A stretch of 14,959 nt of DNA, taken from NCBI GenBank assembly GCA_947626405.1, contig CANQSE010000019.1:1-14959 (forward strand), in the 5' to 3' direction. Made by a program: the position numbers and the translations under genes. Position 1 is the first letter of the stretch. Every line of letters begins with the position of its first letter. The stretch comes from an uncultured Acetatifactor sp. GTDB lineage: Bacteria; Bacillota; Clostridia; Lachnospirales; Lachnospiraceae. Below, piece by piece: positions 20-14,959 of the stretch. Under the pieces are notes generated by a model. The model saw nothing but the letters and a program-made list of their open reading frames with translations, had not been told where the DNA came from and did no database searches.

Positions 20-1516
20 TCAGTTTCCGGTGGGAGTATTGACTATTCCCACGAACAGCGGCAGGCCGCTGTCCCCTGTGATGCAGAACAGGAAGGGGCG
101 ATCAAGGACAAAGTCCACTTCCTCGTCGGGCGGCATGGCAGCGCCGGCTGCAAGCATCACCGTGAATGCGGCGGCGGTGCAGCCTTCCTCGTCGATTTTT
201 ACCCTTGCCGCGTGGTCGGCGCTGGAGAGCACAATGGGCGCGTCAGTATCAGTAGTCATGGGAGTGAAGTCGGCGCGGTACGGGTCGAATACGTCAGTGA
301 CCCCCAGCTTCTGCAGCCCTTCTCCTAAATCAAATTGAGATGCCACGTCAAATTTGGGAATGGATTTGTTCACAAACAGGAATTTGGTATTTTCCCATTT
401 ACCACGGTTAAAGAGGAAATTCACCGTCTCTTTGTCGGAGAGCAGCTCCTCCGGAGTGATGCCTTCGTCCGGAAGGATAAACCACATCTGGCCTCCTTCT
501 TCAAAGCCCTGACTGATGGCGGCAAAATGCTCTCCCCAATAGTAGTTCTGATCGTCCCGCTGGTGCATAAAATCAGCTTCGATATCCCCATTGGGGCTGT
601 GGAAGGTCTCGGATACTGTGTTTGTTTCGGAAAATTCATGGCTCCATTTTGCCCTGAAGTATACGGAGGTCGCCAGGGCGAGGACAGTTTCGGGATCCAT
701 GGTGACATTTCCTGCCTGATCCGCTAAAAGTCCGCCTGTCTGTTGGGTAAGCCACTCCTGCAGGGCCTTGTTGTATTCGTCAGTGCCCATCTCTCCCTGA
801 TAGGACGATGCGTAGAGATCCCGTGCGAGTGTATCCAGAGTGTCCTGATTGAAGCTTATATCTCTGTTCAGCCAGAGGGAGCTTGCGAGGATGGATGTCA
901 GCGCCCCGTCGTCACGGTAATTGCAGTGCCAGACGTCGCTTGCCTGTTTACGCAGCGCGTCCGTACTGTCGCTGCCAAGAAGGGAGAGGATCTGGGAGCA
1001 GCTTTCGCCGTCCGTAAGCTGAGCCAGCATACTGAGCGCCATATAGACATTTAAGGGGGAGTAGACCCTGTTCTGCCCGTCTGTGTCTGATAAAAATACG
1101 GCGGAGCTGTTCATGAAAAAGGTCTGCAGGGAGGAGATGTCCCCAAGATCCCGACGCTGCGCCCGGACATCTTCCCACCAGTCTTCAAATTGCTTCTCTG
1201 TATGTGGCTCTCCGGGGTAGGGAGCCATTTGAGGATATTGAGCTTCGGCAAGGGCATAAGCTTTCAACTCTCCGCCGGGACGGAGAAAGACGTGAACAAG
1301 CATATCAGGGAGATTATCGTATTTTCCCCGTAAATATCCGTATTTAAAAGCAGGCAGAAGAATACCGCAAATGATGGCAATGGCAAGTACCGCAGCAGCA
1401 GCGCCAAACCAACGCGCTTTTTTGTGACGTTTCTGCTTTCCGGGGGCGGACTTTGTCCCTTCAACAAGGTCATCCCTTATATCGGTTATTCCATCGTAAA
1501 TATCGTTTGGATTCAT
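20..1516 (-). CDS. Membrane-anchored serpin, putative anti-sigma partner
   Basis: A 498-residue serpin (serine-protease inhibitor fold). Residues 1-35 form a short cytoplasmic, basic-ended segment; about 36-58 is one hydrophobic helix (WFGAAAAVLAIAIICGILLP), so the serpin body (about 130-498) should face outside. Serpin marks are YSPLNVYMALSMLAQ after a linker, the hinge IDEEGCTAAAF at about 441-451, and the C-terminal DRPFLFCI...PLFVGIVNTP. Counting from hinge G445 as P15 puts the scissile P1-P1' near A459-A460, hinting at an elastase-like target; P14 Cys and P9 Phe are not canonical. The start ATG overlaps the sigma-factor stop as ATGA, indicating translational coupling. The N-terminus (DIYDGITDIRDDLVEGT) resembles, from memory, the short N-terminal segment of membrane proteins paired with ECF sigma factors in Clostridia. 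The serpin fold is well supported; the anti-sigma role is inference. Confidence 0.9.
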   Translation of the reverse strand: MNPNDIYDGITDIRDDLVEGTKSAPGKQKRHKKARWFGAAAAVLAIAIICGILLPAFKYGYLRGKYDNLPDMLVHVFLRPGGELKAYALAEAQYPQMAPYPGEPHTEKQFEDWWEDVRAQRRDLGDISSLQTFFMNSSAVFLSDTDGQNRVYSPLNVYMALSMLAQLTDGESCSQILSLLGSDSTDALRKQASDVWHCNYRDDGALTSILASSLWLNRDISFNQDTLDTLARDLYASSYQGEMGTDEYNKALQEWLTQQTGGLLADQAGNVTMDPETVLALATSVYFRAKWSHEFSETNTVSETFHSPNGDIEADFMHQRDDQNYYWGEHFAAISQGFEEGGQMWFILPDEGITPEELLSDKETVNFLFNRGKWENTKFLFVNKSIPKFDVASQFDLGEGLQKLGVTDVFDPYRADFTPMTTDTDAPIVLSSADHAARVKIDEEGCTAAAFTVMLAAGAAMPPDEEVDFVLDRPFLFCITGDSGLPLFVGIVNTPTGN

Positions 1517-2070
1517 GGCTCTACTCCTTTAGTTTCCAGAAATGTGCGCAGCCCTTTGCGTAGACGCAATAGCCGCTGTGAACAGTTGTTTGACCGCTCA
1601 TTAAGCTTCGCGGCCAGTTCCTTTACCGAATCTGCGTACCAATATCTGCGGACAAAAAGCCAGCGGTCCGTATCATCCAGGGTGTCCAGCCAGTCACTGA
1701 TCGCTTCCGCGAGGATATGCCGTTCGACGGACGCTTCCACCGTGCAGGTGGAAGGCACGCAGTCTTCAAGCTCCGAAAGCAGGATTTCGATCCCGTCATA
1801 TCGTTTCCCTGCGTGATCGCGTCGCCATCGGCTGACGGACAGATTGCGTGTGATTCGCCCGAGGAAAGCGCCAAGATACGCCGGACGATCAGGAGGCATT
1901 TTGTTCCAGGCGGCATACCAGGTGTCGTTGACACATTCCTCTGCGTCCTCCTTCAGCCCGAGAAGCCGCATGGCGATTGAGCGGCACATTCCGCCGTATT
2001 TTCTGTCAGATTCTGTAATGGCCTGTTCTTCCCGCCTGTGATAAAGCTCAATAATGGCAGTATCGTCCAT
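1513..2070 (-). CDS. RNA polymerase sigma factor, sigma-70/ECF type
   Basis: A 185-residue sigma factor with regions 2 and 4 only. Region 2 is about residues 12-90: the -10-recognition helix area is EDAEECVNDTWYAAWNKMPP, followed by YLGAFLGRITRNLSVSRWRR. Region 4 is about 120-180: AISDWLDTLDDTDRWLFVRR, then the helix-turn-helix SVKELAAKLNERSNNCSQRL. I chose the ATG at 2070 because a GGAG sits 6 nt upstream (2077-2080). An in-frame ATG at 2082 would add four residues but lacks a good site and abuts a palindrome. The stop overlaps the serpin start (ATGA), so the pair forms one operon. By analogy with sigma/anti-sigma operons it should direct an extracytoplasmic-stress regulon, probably including itself. 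The family is certain; the regulon is unknown. Confidence 0.93.
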   Translation of the reverse strand: MDDTAIIELYHRREEQAITESDRKYGGMCRSIAMRLLGLKEDAEECVNDTWYAAWNKMPPDRPAYLGAFLGRITRNLSVSRWRRDHAGKRYDGIEILLSELEDCVPSTCTVEASVERHILAEAISDWLDTLDDTDRWLFVRRYWYADSVKELAAKLNERSNNCSQRLLRLRKGLRTFLETKGVEP

Positions 2071-2152: not shown

Positions 2153-2350
2153 TTACAAGTAAAGTCGCAAAACAAGTGAAAAAATGACAGATACTTTTTT
2201 GACCCTTCTGTAAAGAATAAAAGTGAAACCATTTTCCGAAAGTTCATAAGAATACTTTATCTTTGCATCCCTGCACAAACTGTCGATACGCTTAAGGCCG
2301 CTTCCAAACCGCTCAATAGACTTGTTCAAATTATATTTAAAAGCCCGCAA
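2153..2350 (-). pseudogene. C-terminal remnant of AlbA_2/RecG-like ATP-binding protein
   Basis: The frame encodes IERFGSGLKRIDSLCRDAKI followed by KYSYELSENGFTFILYR. This is the characteristic C-terminal stretch (W/FGSGxxRI...) of putative transcriptional regulators with an AlbA_2 (Schlafen-like) DNA-binding domain, often annotated as RecG-like or ATP-binding proteins of 400-500 residues. Only about 45 residues of homology remain. The nominal ATG at 2350 lies inside a terminator hairpin, and no upstream part of the gene is present; tRNA genes lie there instead. I read it as a decayed gene end, probably not expressed. Family recognition is from memory. Confidence 0.55.
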
Positions 2351-5023: not shown

Positions 5024-5096
5024 GGGGCATTAGCGCAGCTGGGAGCGCGCCACACTGGCAGTGTGGAGGCCACGGGTTCAAGTCCCGTATGCTCCA
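5024..5096 (+). tRNA. tRNA-Ala (anticodon GGC)
   Basis: A 73-nt cloverleaf with acceptor GGGGCAT/ATGCTCC, D stem GCGC/GCGC, anticodon stem CCACA/TGTGG, loop CTGGCAG giving GGC, T stem CGGG/CCCG with loop TTCAAGT, and discriminator A. CCA is not encoded. A possible terminator (AAGGCT at 5102-5107, AGCCTT at 5130-5135, then TTATAT) overlaps the 3' end of the convergent gene. Confidence 0.95.
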
Positions 5097-10787: not shown

Positions 10788-10892
10788 GTCGAAGCACAGG
10801 CGCGTCTGCCGGGAGAACATCGGAAGTATCGGGCATGACCTGGGGGAAAAGGCTGAAGTGTTACGTTTTGCGGAAAATGTTAAAAAAGGGTA

Positions 10893-10921
10893 TTGCTTTT
10901 TTTGCCGCGGCGCGGTATAAT
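10893..10921 (+). promoter_or_regulatory. Sigma-A promoter for tRNA-Pro
   Basis: TTGCTT (10893-10898), a 17-bp GC-rich spacer, and TATAAT (10916-10921). The predicted start is only about 6 nt ahead of the tRNA. Confidence 0.85.
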
Positions 10922-10934
10922 ATGACACGTGTCG

Positions 10935-11009
10935 CGGGGTGTGGCTCAGCTTGGTTAGAGCGCCGTCTTAGGGAGGCGGAGGTCGCGAGTTCGAATCCCG
11001 CCACTCCGA
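10935..11009 (+). tRNA. tRNA-Pro (anticodon AGG)
   Basis: A 75-nt cloverleaf with acceptor CGGGGTG/CACTCCG, D stem GCTC/GAGC, anticodon stem CCGTC/GGCGG, and loop TTAGGGA giving AGG with G37, as usual for proline tRNAs. The T stem GCGAG/CCCGC has one A-C mismatch; the T loop is TTCGAAT and the discriminator A. CCA is not encoded. A34 is uncommon in bacteria outside tRNA-Arg(ACG). Confidence 0.9.
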
Positions 11010-11015
11010 TACATC

Positions 11016-11065
11016 AGGAAGTCCGGAAAACCTTGAAATACAGGGTTCCGGACTTCTTTTTATTT
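11016..11065 (+). terminator. Rho-independent terminator after tRNA-Pro
   Basis: An 11-bp perfect stem (GAAGTCCGGAA at 11018-11028, TTCCGGACTTC at 11046-11056) is followed by TTTTTATTT. It begins 7-9 nt after the tRNA. Confidence 0.92.
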
Positions 11066-11192
11066 GCATTACAGTTAGTCTGTACTTACTTGTGTGTTAA
11101 ATTATAGTGTTATTTTATATGTTTTGTTATTTGAATTGGAGTAGAAATTGGGTCAGTAAAAACATATTTTTATTTTCATTCTGAAAAAAAGG

Positions 11193-11304: not shown

Positions 11305-13350
11305 ATGAAAAACAAGAAAATGAGCACTGTTATTACCGCAATCGTCTCTTGTGTCACCGCAGTATGTATGCTGCTGCTTTTCCTGGTTGCCAGTCTGAAT
11401 ATGACTTCGGCGATGAGGGATTCCGCGAGAAACAATATGGTAACATCGCTGAATGCCCGGGCGCAGCTTATAGAACAGTATGTGGCGCAGGCTGAGAGCC
11501 TTATGATCGCTTTCGGCAAATCTCCGGTCGTGGCGGATCTGCTGAGAGATCCTGACAATGCTGCCGCGACGCAGAAGGCCCAGGATTATACGGTGAATTT
11601 CTACAAGGACCTCGACGGCTGGGAAGGCGTCTACATAGCGGAGTGGGATTCCCATGTGCTGACGCATATCAATCCCGGGGCAATAGGCATTTATACCCGT
11701 GAGGGAGATCCTTTAAAGCAGATGCAGGACGGCATACTTGCAGCCGGAGCAGTATATAACATAGGTATACTTGTTTCCCCCGCTTCTCAGCAGCTGACGC
11801 TCTCTCTGTACAGCCCTGTTTACGACACGGACGGCGATATCCTTGGTTATGTGGGAGGCGGACAGTTTGCAACCAGCCTGACGAATCCCCTTCAGCAGGT
11901 AGTTGTGGAGGGCCTCGAGAACGCCAGGGATTATATGATAAATACGGCGGCCGCTACATATATTTATGATCAGGATGAATCGCTGGTCGCTACGGAAATT
12001 GAGAATCCCATGCTTCTGGAGGTAATTGACAAGATAAACAACGATCCTTCGCAGCTTGTGGGAGAAATAGAGTATGTCGATGAGAACGGAGTAAAGAGTG
12101 TTGCAATGTACCAGTACCTGCCTGATCGTCAGTGGGCAGTGGTATTGAGCGACAGTGAAAGCGAAATTTACAGTCTTGCAAACACAAACAGGATTACTTT
12201 CGGTATTCTCTGTATCGTGGCGTTTATCCTGATCGCCGTGTTGTCATTCGCGGCAGTTAAGGTTTGCGTGAAGCCTCTGGATGTGGTTGAGAGATCCATC
12301 GACAGACTGAAGAATCTGGAGCTCAGGATCCCGACGGATATGAAAAAGTATGTGGGCGGTGCAAGCGAGACAGGAAAGATTGCAACGGCGGTCGATTCGC
12401 TTTATACAACCCTGCAGAATATCGTGTCTACACTTCGTGGCTGTACGGAATCGCTTGGCGAGTCAACCGACAGGATGAGTGAAGCGACACATACGCTCGT
12501 TGAATATGTCGGAGATAACTCCGCCACCACCGAGGAGCTTGCGGCAAGCATCACAACGACCAACGAAGCCATAGACAATGTGACGGGTGAGATTGAGAGA
12601 ATCTCAGAGCTTGTGCAGCATGTCGAGGAGAAGGTGACGGCAGGGGATGAAAAGAGCAATCAGCTCCTCCACACTGCGGCTTCAATGAAGGAAATGGCCG
12701 AGAATACTCTGGGTGAGACAGCCGAAAAGATAGAAGTGAACAGAAAGAACGTTGAGGCCGCAATGGTCAACCTGCAGTCGCTTACCAGAATCAATGACAT
12801 GGCACAGCAGATCCTGGAGATTGCAAACCAGACCAACCTTTTGTCGCTGAACGCGTCGATCGAGGCTGCCAGGGCCGGAGAGCAGGGCAGAGGATTTGCG
12901 GTTGTGGCTCAGGAAATCGGAAATCTTGCATCAAATTCCTCCGCTACAGCTACACAGATCTCCGATATCTGCGGAGAGATCAATACAAACATCAAGAATG
13001 TGCAGACCTGCGTGGACGATATCATCAACTTTATGGAGGTGGATGTCGCTGATAAATTTAAGGAGTTTGTTGGAATAGCAAACGAATACGGCGGCTCTGT
13101 TGAGTCAATCAGGGAGGCCATCGGCGAGATCGAGGAAACCACAAACGGATTTGTTTCGTCAGTTACAAGTATACGCGACCGTATGGAGGTTATCAGAACG
13201 GCTTCCGGTGAAAATGAAGCGGGCGTGGGAGACATTGTAAACAAGATTGAGCAGACCAACACGACGGCTGAGGAGCTGCAGAGCGTTGGTAAGATCAACC
13301 AGGAAAACGCAAAAGAGATCAGCACTATCGTGGAAAAATTTACGGAGTGA
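11305..13350 (+). CDS. Methyl-accepting chemotaxis protein, Cache-type sensor
   Basis: A 681-residue transmembrane chemoreceptor that would signal through CheW/CheA. Helix 1 is about residues 7-30; the extracellular sensor of about 260 residues (35-292) contains [16 protein letters not shown] and [18 protein letters not shown], fitting a double Cache domain. Helix 2 is about 297-317, then a HAMP-like linker ([18 protein letters not shown]). The cytoplasmic signalling domain has the conserved hairpin tip at about 502-545 ([31 protein letters not shown]). It ends STIVEKFTE, with no NWETF-like pentapeptide. GGAGGAG precedes the ATG. It is a close paralogue of the next gene, about three quarters identical over the N-terminal 60 residues by eye. 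The ligand is unknown. Confidence 0.94.
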
Positions 13351-13432: not shown

Positions 13433-13464
13433 GGCAAAATAAAAATATGACATGCCGTTTTGCC
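13433..13464 (+). promoter_or_regulatory. Leader hairpin of second chemoreceptor gene
   Basis: GGCAAAA (13433-13439) pairs perfectly with TTTTGCC (13458-13464) over an 18-nt loop. It starts 11 nt after the -10, at the predicted mRNA 5' end. The right arm and what follows (GCCGTTTTGCCGCACAT, then AAGGAGGA) match the first receptor leader (GCTGTTTTGCACCACAT, then AGGAGGA). Confidence 0.55.
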
Positions 13465-13488
13465 GCACATGCTACAAGGAGGATTGCG

Positions 13489-14959
13489 ATGAAAAACCAA
13501 AAAATGAGTACGGTTATTACAACCATTGTCGCCTGCGTTACAGCGGTATGTATACTGCTTCTGTTTCTGGTGGCAAGCCGTAATATGACCGTGGCAATGA
13601 GAGAAACGTCCATGAACAACATGGAGACTTCCCTTAACGCAAGGGCTGAAGTAATTGAGCAGTATGTTGCCCAGGCTGAGAATCTGACGATTGCTTTCGG
13701 AAAGGCTCCGATTGTGACACAGCTTCTGAAGAATCCCACAAACGCAACGCTTGCCCAGCAGGCACAGAATTATACGCTTAAGTATTTTGCCGGGCTTGAC
13801 AACTGGGAGGGAATTTACATAGCCGAGTGGGACAGTCATGTGCTTACGCATCCCAACGCCGGTACGATAGGAATGTATACGCGTACGGGAGATCCTTTGG
13901 CGGCGCTTCAAAATTCAATCAAGGCGTCGGGAGATATTTATGACACGGGTATTATCGTGTCCCCTGCTACACAGCAGCTTATCCTTTCGCTTTATGCGCC
14001 TGTGTTTGACGACAACGACAACATTGTTGGTTATGTAGGAGCGGGTCAGTTCGCTTCGAGTCTTGCAGAGCTTCTGGATCAGTTGAATGTTGAAGGCATG
14101 CAGCATGCAAGAAATTATATGATTAATGTTGCCACGTCGATGCACATCTTTGACGAAAACGAGGAGATGATGGCGCAGCCTATCGAAAACCAGATGCTGC
14201 TTGACATTATCGACAAAATTAACGAGGATCCTTCCGTTCTGGTCGGTGATATTGAATATGTAGATGAGAACGGAGACAAGTGCGTCGCAGTTTATCAGTA
14301 CCTGCCTGAGCGTCAGTGGGCGGTTGTGCTGAGCGATACGGAGTCAGAGATTTACAGTACCGCTACCCAGAGCCGTAATATTCTGGCGCTGATTTGTGTG
14401 GCGGCGTTCATCCTGATTGCTGTTCTGTCCTGGATTTCCGTGAAGCTCTGTGTGAAGCCTCTGGAAATCATAGAAAATTCCATTGAGAAGCTTAAGAATC
14501 TGGAGCTGCAGACTCCTGAAGACATAAAGCACTATGTGGGAGGAAAAAGCGAGACAGGGAAGATTGCGACGGCGATGGATTCCCTCTACGGAACGCTGAG
14601 AAGCATAGTGTCTACGCTTCGCGGCTGTACTGAATCTCTCGGCGAATCTACAAGCAGGATGAGTGAAGCGACGCATACGCTTGTTGAATATGTCGGAGAT
14701 AACTCCGCGACCACCGAGGAGCTTGCTGCAAGTATTACCACAACCAACGAGGCCATTGAGAACGTTGTGGGTGAAATCGCAAGAATTGCCGAAATGGTTG
14801 ATACCGTTGAAGAAAAGGTTAAGGCCGGCGACGACAAGAGCAAGCAGCTTATCCATACGGCTGCGGCGATGCGGACAATGGCTGAGAGCACGCTGAACGA
14901 TACCGACACAAAGATTCAGGAAAACCGCAAGAATGTGGAAGCGGCCATGGTGAACCTGC
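13489..14959 (+). CDS. Methyl-accepting chemotaxis protein, partial (3' end outside window)
   Basis: An open frame of 490 codons that runs off the window without a stop. The start is MKNQKMSTVITTIVACVTAV after AAGGAGGA. It has the same layout as the upstream receptor: helix 1 at about 7-30, Cache-type sensor ([34 protein letters not shown]), helix 2 at about 297-317, then KPLEIIENSIEKLKNLEL and the start of the signalling domain ([20 protein letters not shown]). The part with the conserved hairpin tip should lie just beyond the window. The linker and early signalling region are nearly identical to the first copy while the sensor has diverged more, suggesting tandem duplication with ligand change. 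The sensor's ligand is unknown. Confidence 0.93.
   Translation, partial: MKNQKMSTVITTIVACVTAVCILLLFLVASRNMTVAMRETSMNNMETSLNARAEVIEQYVAQAENLTIAFGKAPIVTQLLKNPTNATLAQQAQNYTLKYFAGLDNWEGIYIAEWDSHVLTHPNAGTIGMYTRTGDPLAALQNSIKASGDIYDTGIIVSPATQQLILSLYAPVFDDNDNIVGYVGAGQFASSLAELLDQLNVEGMQHARNYMINVATSMHIFDENEEMMAQPIENQMLLDIIDKINEDPSVLVGDIEYVDENGDKCVAVYQYLPERQWAVVLSDTESEIYSTATQSRNILALICVAAFILIAVLSWISVKLCVKPLEIIENSIEKLKNLELQTPEDIKHYVGGKSETGKIATAMDSLYGTLRSIVSTLRGCTESLGESTSRMSEATHTLVEYVGDNSATTEELAASITTTNEAIENVVGEIARIAEMVDTVEEKVKAGDDKSKQLIHTAAAMRTMAESTLNDTDTKIQENRKNVEAAMVNL

Follow-up and report, generated by a model that had tools for sequence, protein, structure and literature searches.

A membrane-anchored serpin as the probable anti-sigma factor of an adjacent ECF sigma factor in an uncultured Acetatifactor

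We examined a window of 14,959 nucleotides from an uncultured Acetatifactor sp. (assembly GCA_947626405.1, contig CANQSE010000019.1, here C19), in which a gene for an extracytoplasmic function (ECF) sigma factor is directly followed, on the minus strand, by a gene for a membrane-anchored serpin. Based on sequence comparison, the serpin is very probably the cognate anti-sigma factor of this sigma factor, because the gene pair is conserved, the N-terminal module of the serpin is shared in both directions with other sigma partners, and this module co-varies with the sigma factor. The original prediction had placed the serpin in the anti-sigma position, and the same three lines of evidence favor that placement. 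The fuller explanation, in which the anti-sigma serpin is attacked by a protease, the sigma factor is released and the operon is re-made, is given a probability of about 0.55. Single-pass anti-sigma factors with an outer receptor domain are already known, and the use of a serpin as the outer domain would be the new part.

In the proposed mechanism, the sigma and serpin genes would form one signalling unit. A cytoplasmic end with two helices, some 35 residues long, would keep the ECF sigma factor at the membrane, a single helix would span the membrane, and an inhibitory-type serpin would lie outside. Attack of a protease on the reactive-centre loop would leave the serpin spent and changed in shape (or cut), and the membrane stub would then become a substrate for regulated intramembrane proteolysis, by which the sigma factor is released. 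The free sigma factor would transcribe at least its own operon so that the spent inhibitor is replaced, and its activity would act as a gauge of inhibitor consumption. Sigma binding, inhibition, the protease trigger, proteolytic release and autoregulation are the steps that we infer, and those of trigger and release are modelled on RsiV as it is described in PMC5014341.

Sigma-serpin pairs, for which the original prediction had proposed a search, were encountered across many genomes. A protein search gave 5504 relatives among 7998 scored candidates, and among the best 120 of the 5504 a loose version of the N-terminal motif was present in all and the strict version G[VI]TD[IVL]R[DE]D in 117. 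Among 200 genomes of the same family, serpins were found in 73 and relatives of the window sigma factor in 90. We pooled serpin matches, sigma matches, 80 of 130 confirmed named loci and neighbours into 221 loci, which held 199 distinct serpin open reading frames (ORFs), 192 of them full length. Directly behind a same-strand ECF sigma gene lay 76 of the 192 full-length serpins, while 105 had no sigma gene by the profile rule despite at least 900 nt upstream and 11 had too little room; these counts are not a neutral sample, as the pooled loci were partly selected by sigma, and they include the same gene cut differently in two locus pairs (L035/L181 and L055/L177), one serpin with a signal peptide (L158), and at least six serpins counted as uncoupled that have a sigma factor of another type. 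When the loci from the family genomes were taken alone, 21 of 103 full-length serpins were coupled, 76 were uncoupled and 6 were without room. The overlap between the sigma stop and the serpin start was exactly 4 nt in 51 of the 76 coupled loci, and in the window it is the ATGA that had been read there originally. Dozens of loci show this gene order, many of them with an identical overlap, so the pairing is not due to chance.

It could be argued that the neighbourhood is coincidental or regulatory, with the sigma factor driving a surface serpin whose N-terminus is a mere anchor and with the true anti-sigma factor encoded elsewhere. We consider this highly improbable. In its favor, the window stops short: position 1 is the end of the contig and only 19 bases are left past the serpin stop, so the next gene is not visible in this genome (approximately 2.0 Mb in 287 contigs, 85% complete). 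A separate anti-sigma gene beyond the serpin, which would have spoken against the original prediction, was sought in the related loci and rejected as a candidate; no recurring one was found downstream of the serpin when the first part of every ORF was inspected visually, without a family search and with several loci ending first, as the gene that follows varies between loci and often lies on the opposite strand. Uncoupled serpins are also often lipoprotein-like instead, as a simple pattern for such a signal was matched by 50 of the 95 serpins without a sigma factor compared to 6 of the 77 with the N-terminal module.

The module itself was compared in two directions. A profile of residues 1-48, built from 73 coupled serpins and run against 6219 ORFs, matched 46 ORFs that were neither serpin nor sigma factor (E < 1e-2), and 44 of these lay directly behind a sigma gene, compared to a baseline of 94 among 5871 non-serpin, non-sigma ORFs; since a few loci overlap, some of the 46 matches repeat, and one (L038, the same locus as L204) may be a split serpin. 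At that locus, the module ORF overlaps a serpin frame cut by the contig end, which could be one split gene or two. The reverse profile, built from 42 non-serpin partners and independent of the first, matched 71 of the 76 coupled serpins versus 2 of the 116 others, each a second serpin gene that follows closely on a sigma-serpin pair (L088 and L158). The consensus of the module is about MKSEKLFDAITDIDDDLIEEAEKAPKKKKRRK. The window serpin thus shares its N-terminal module with other sigma partners, and the conservation of residues 1-35 across non-serpin, anti-sigma-like proteins that the original prediction had looked for was recovered. As non-serpin sigma partners also carry the module and uncoupled serpins almost never do, a mere anchor is disfavored. 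The Pfam scan of 10 non-serpin partners gave DUF4349 (one), DUF4179 below threshold (one), a weak beta-propeller (one) and nothing else. From the two-way profile matches and these differing domains, we conclude at the sequence level that one cytoplasmic module bears various outer domains, the serpin among them. The window genome also contains a second sigma factor of the same family (43% identity) whose partner is a 333-residue non-serpin protein with the module (L203), and no serpin besides that of the window was found in this genome, which is incomplete.

Two three-gene arrays were noted at the loci with second serpin genes, one consisting of sigma factor, secreted serpin and anti-sigma serpin (L158, 2236-5961) and the other of a sigma factor with two tandem anti-sigma serpins (L088, 2933-6437).

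We assessed co-variation using 115 sigma/partner pairs (73 serpin and 42 other), with distance correlations compared to 500 permutations. Sigma distances were correlated with those of a 21-residue core of the module at 0.64 over all 115 pairs (permutations: mean 0, maximum 0.13). In the 73 serpin pairs, the correlation with sigma was 0.78 for the core and 0.66 for the whole serpin domain, with 0.46 for the other positions among residues 1-70. The partial correlation was 0.67 for the core when the serpin was controlled for, and 0.44 for the serpin when the core was. Background-corrected mutual information, with sigma residues numbered from the ATG at 2070, gave R136-G20, W127-T11, A146-Y7 and L152-T11 as the top four sigma-partner links, with values from 0.37 to 0.28, all above the mean top value of 0.23 after 12 shuffles. 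All four sigma positions fall in the region-4 match, and helix 1 of known anti-sigma domains is reported to bind sigma region 4 (PMC7406223). An N-terminus that co-varies with the sigma factor again argues against its being an anchor alone.

When a sigma factor was joined to the first 45 residues of its partner (locus L078), the fold had a mean predicted local distance difference test (pLDDT) of 84.1 and a predicted template modelling (pTM) score of 0.79, with two fairly confident helices in the partner; the blocks at 211-240 averaged 79, 89 and 76 and the preceding block 52, in an alignment in which only 4 of 44 rows cover the N-terminus. When the serpin was folded by itself, block means at this end were 32-39, a comparison that is only suggestive given that alignments and lengths differ between the two folds.

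The two predicted helices, together with positions 7, 11 and 20 that covary with region 4, may correspond to the layout of the class II pair CnrH-CnrY of Cupriavidus, in which the two-helix anti-sigma factor places its first helix against sigma region 4 and its second against region 2 (PMC7406223). The comparison is one of layout, and no sequence kinship between CnrY and the window module was shown. The signal for CnrH-CnrY is a metal. The class I anti-sigma domain is described as having four helices and in part an Hx3Cx2C zinc motif (PMC7406223), whereas the window protein has only two predicted helices in about 35 residues and no cysteine there.

For the remainder of the window protein, Serpin was the sole Pfam match at E < 0.01 (6.5e-61), and profile positions 16-370 of 370 were covered, as in a complete serpin fold; conserpin and tengpin were among the nearest solved sequences. 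The best 19-residue hydrophobic window is 39-57, the only such stretch, and residues 18-36, which come after a short charged end, contain 7 K/R versus 1 D/E. Because this basic stretch precedes the single hydrophobic stretch, the N-terminus is probably inside the cell. Hydropathy, charge and Pfam are consequently in accord with the short cytoplasmic N-terminus, single helix and outer serpin domain proposed at the outset, as a predicted topology. The sigma ORF extends to 2082, and the start of the gene was put at the second ATG (MDDTAII..., position 2070) because close relatives begin at the corresponding ATG. The sigma protein matched Sigma70_r2 above the cut-off (1.5e-9), region 4 weakly (18.7 bits compared to a cut-off of 25.7) and the ECF superfamily model TIGR02937 (62.4 bits, cut-off 42.9), which is the composition of an ECF (group 4) sigma factor with regions 2 and 4 only.

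An intriguing question is whether the serpin is still inhibitory and whether a protease is the signal. The hinge EEGCTAAAF begins at E443, with small residues at P14 and P12-P10, and canonical counting gave the same hinge and the same P1 residue (Ala459) as had been proposed. Of the 77 module-bearing serpins (75 parsed), 74 have an inhibitory-type hinge, as do all five serpins behind a second sigma type (below). The P1 residue by count was A, S or G in 61 of the 75 parsed module serpins and in 46 of 91 uncoupled serpins, a difference that is not a test since many module serpins are close relatives. Small P1 residues suit elastase-like enzymes. The conserved inhibitory hinge and mostly small P1 are compatible with a protease trigger, and we place protease attack on the reactive-centre loop as the trigger at even odds.

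The serpin could instead be an anti-sigma factor whose outer domain senses a ligand, the envelope state or unfolding, the fold being merely a recruited binding domain like that of RsiV for lysozyme. All of the anti-sigma evidence (pairing, module and co-variation) is neutral as to the signal, and the non-serpin relatives of the module bear other outer domains, such as the DUF4349 and sub-threshold DUF4179 noted above. A binding domain would need neither the inhibitory hinge nor the small P1 that is more frequent here than in uncoupled serpins, and we regard this alternative as unlikely, though it is the stronger of the two that accept an anti-sigma role. In the other, a protease cuts the tethered serpin as a plain substrate, in the loop or the linker, as a site-1 cleavage to which the inhibitory shape change is irrelevant. 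Regulated proteolysis usually begins with such an outside cut according to PMC5014341, the linker after the membrane helix differs greatly in length among relatives, and the window genome has genes for an M50 (site-2) protease and signal peptidase, as do nearly all control genomes. Plain cutting leaves the retention of the inhibitory hinge unexplained and appears quite unlikely.

The proposed protease-triggered anti-sigma serpin was compared with known systems. SigV-RsiV of Bacillus subtilis and Clostridioides difficile likewise pairs an ECF sigma factor with a single-pass anti-sigma factor that has an outer domain acting as receptor for an enzyme of host defence; this ligand receptor is reported to be opened by signal peptidase and RasP, and active sigma raises the transcription of its own operon (PMC5014341). 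RsiV differs in its DUF4163/DUF3298 outer domain and in its signal, which is lysozyme binding, whereas the window protein matches Serpin only. In Thermoanaerobacter tengcongensis, adjacent genes encode the ECF sigma factor Tt-RpoE1 and Tt-TolB, which has a short cytoplasmic end, one helix and a large outer domain, and residues 1-39 of Tt-TolB bind the sigma factor (PMC3397946). The outer domain there is of TolB type, and its likeness to the window protein is one of layout. Siropins of the gut bacterium Eubacterium siraeum are Firmicutes serpins with small-residue hinges that inhibit human proteinase 3; they differ in that one is predicted to be intracellular and one extracellular, and no sigma link was found in the available portion of that report (PMC5127057). 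Siropins and the window serpin share small-residue hinges. Neutrophil elastase is also a siropin target. A serpin phylogeny mentions membrane-anchored prokaryotic serpins with no function assigned in the portion available, and treats the reason why some gut bacteria retain serpins as an open question (PMC8233489). No title or abstract found in the open-licence literature describes a sigma-serpin pair.

If the explanation holds, a serpin acting as a transcription sensor would join two fields, the irreversible serpin shape change would be a signalling event, and gut commensals would read host or bacterial protease activity directly. Sigma activity would report serpin consumption, which would make the reason for keeping serpins testable. 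The N-terminal module may also serve as a simple marker by which further outer sensor domains could be found behind sigma factors of this family.

We examined the region upstream of the sigma gene, where the promoter-like motif of the window (Table 1) is shared by the closest relatives as TGTCAY-N14-TGCGACT. The form TGTCA-N16/17-CGACT was present in 13 of 73 serpin pairs (0.02 expected after shuffling) and 0 of 42 other pairs, and a looser form in 24 of 73 (0.14 expected) and 2 of 42. It resembles the promoter tGTTAC-N16-CGTC, from which Tt-RpoE1 transcribes its own gene in vitro (PMC3397946). The window genome has one exact site only, upstream of the sigma gene. Twelve relatives had 11 exact sites compared to 8 for a reversed-pattern control, and 10 of the 11 were sequences found upstream of sigma. 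A search for a wider regulon with one mismatch gave 40 sites in 13 genomes versus 81 for the control. These searches yielded no evidence for further targets, although degenerate sites would escape them. The distribution fits autoregulation without another strong target, in incomplete genomes where weak sites could be missed, and on this sequence evidence autoregulation is likely. The eleventh exact site (L233, about 1400-1530, in the genome of L082) stands before two tandem ORFs that by eye look secreted and SLH-type, and is a possible target outside the sigma operon in one genome. A first promoter guess of GGAACC / CGTC-GTCT-type hexamers was discarded, having matched 7 of 115 upstream regions. 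At some loci (e.g. L109, L126 and L137), a GTGAAAGG-like stretch was also noted past the -10 element; a loose pattern for it was found in 14 of 73 serpin pairs (0.7 expected) and 7 of 42 non-serpin pairs.

Several results weigh against the explanation as proposed. The sigma/core correlation was just 0.31 in the 42 non-serpin pairs, and shared ancestry can yield covariation between sigma and the N-terminus that is beyond the reach of shuffles. The serpin-derived profile also matched 8 of the 116 full-length serpins counted as uncoupled, namely four behind sigma factors of the second type, the tandem second genes of L088 and L158, and L079 and L186, which have no sigma gene directly before them. 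The inhibitory-type hinge is about equally common in uncoupled serpins (85 of 95, 91 parsed), so that it is no proof of a sensing role. The structural model of the serpin resembles serpins despite a poor mean pLDDT of 60.3. An A-x-A-like stretch past the membrane helix was considered as a signal-peptidase site and was not counted, because uncoupled relatives carry a similar one. The promoter-like motif was not found in 49 of 73 upstream regions, some with misplaced starts, and its counts describe rather than test it, since it was derived from the same regions.

Serpins were also found behind other sigma factors. At five loci (L112, L113, L122, L131 and L132), the serpin had been called uncoupled by the sigma profile but overlaps by 4 nt a short sigma gene of a second type, and both of the two scanned among these five match regions 2 and 4. 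The N-termini of these serpins carry another motif, IHAPEE or IHAPED in four of five. A profile from the partners of 30 such sigma factors in other genomes ranked the five serpins 1, 2, 3, 5 and 7 of 192, with weak separation (E-values 2.7e-5 to 8.4e-4, other serpins from 2e-4). A third sigma type occurs at L151 and L153, with 59% mutual identity and 25-27% identity to the second type; the L153 sigma factor is at most 26% identical to that of the window, and L151 gave no alignment. In the counts above, L153 is among the coupled serpins and L151 among the uncoupled ones. By these comparisons, serpin partners occur with two more sigma types, which look unrelated. In a quick FastTree tree of 189 serpin domains, 25 changes between presence and absence of the anti-sigma end were counted, at least 16 of them forced by well-supported branches, with gain and loss indistinguishable and L151 labelled a non-carrier. 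We tentatively suggest, at somewhat less than even odds, that a suicide inhibitor reporting its own consumption to RNA polymerase was recruited behind at least three ECF sigma types, repeatedly swapping its N-terminus for a lipoprotein anchor. In this reading, one anti-sigma factor would be spent outside and one sigma factor freed inside for each trapped protease molecule, and the sigma factor would chiefly serve to renew its own operon with the serpin. Three serpins with no sigma gene by profile (L084, L085 and L086) have a dockerin-like N-terminal part (e.g. YRLGDINTDGSVNAADALLALQ). Cellulosome serpins are known to carry dockerin.

Table 1. Coordinates of the sigma-serpin pair and other features in the 14,959-nucleotide window.
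Feature	Position	Strand	Basis or remark
Serpin (probable anti-sigma factor) coding sequence, 498 aa	20..1516	-	ORF and Pfam
Serpin domain, residues 143-495	32..1090	-	Pfam, solved-sequence matches, model
Hinge and reactive-centre loop, residues 443-463 (P17 to P4')	128..190	-	P1 = Ala459, canonical count
Single membrane helix, about residues 37-57	1346..1408	-	Hydropathy
Predicted cytoplasmic anti-sigma module, residues 1-35 (MNPNDIYDGITDIRDDLVEG... plus basic stretch)	1412..1516	-
ATGA shared by the sigma stop and the serpin start	1513..1516	-	Same 4-nt overlap in most coupled loci
ECF sigma factor coding sequence	1513..2070	-	185 aa from second ATG; ORF reaches 2082; start set by relatives
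ECF-type promoter-like motif TGTCAT-N14-TGCGACT	2163..2189	-	92 nt before sigma ATG
tRNA Asn	2471-2543
tRNA Gly	2710-2781
tRNA Ala	5024-5096
tRNA Pro	10935-11009

The nearest named relatives (79% identity) are labelled uncultured Acetatifactor, and 'Lapin' in their isolate names suggests rabbit samples. Two adjacent, similar-looking chemoreceptor genes lie at 11305-13350 and 13447-14959; the first matches MCPsignal, with Cache domains weakly (Pfam), and the second, known by its resemblance to the first, continues beyond the window end. Two minor listed ORFs (2449-2709 and 10835-11107) overlap tRNA genes.

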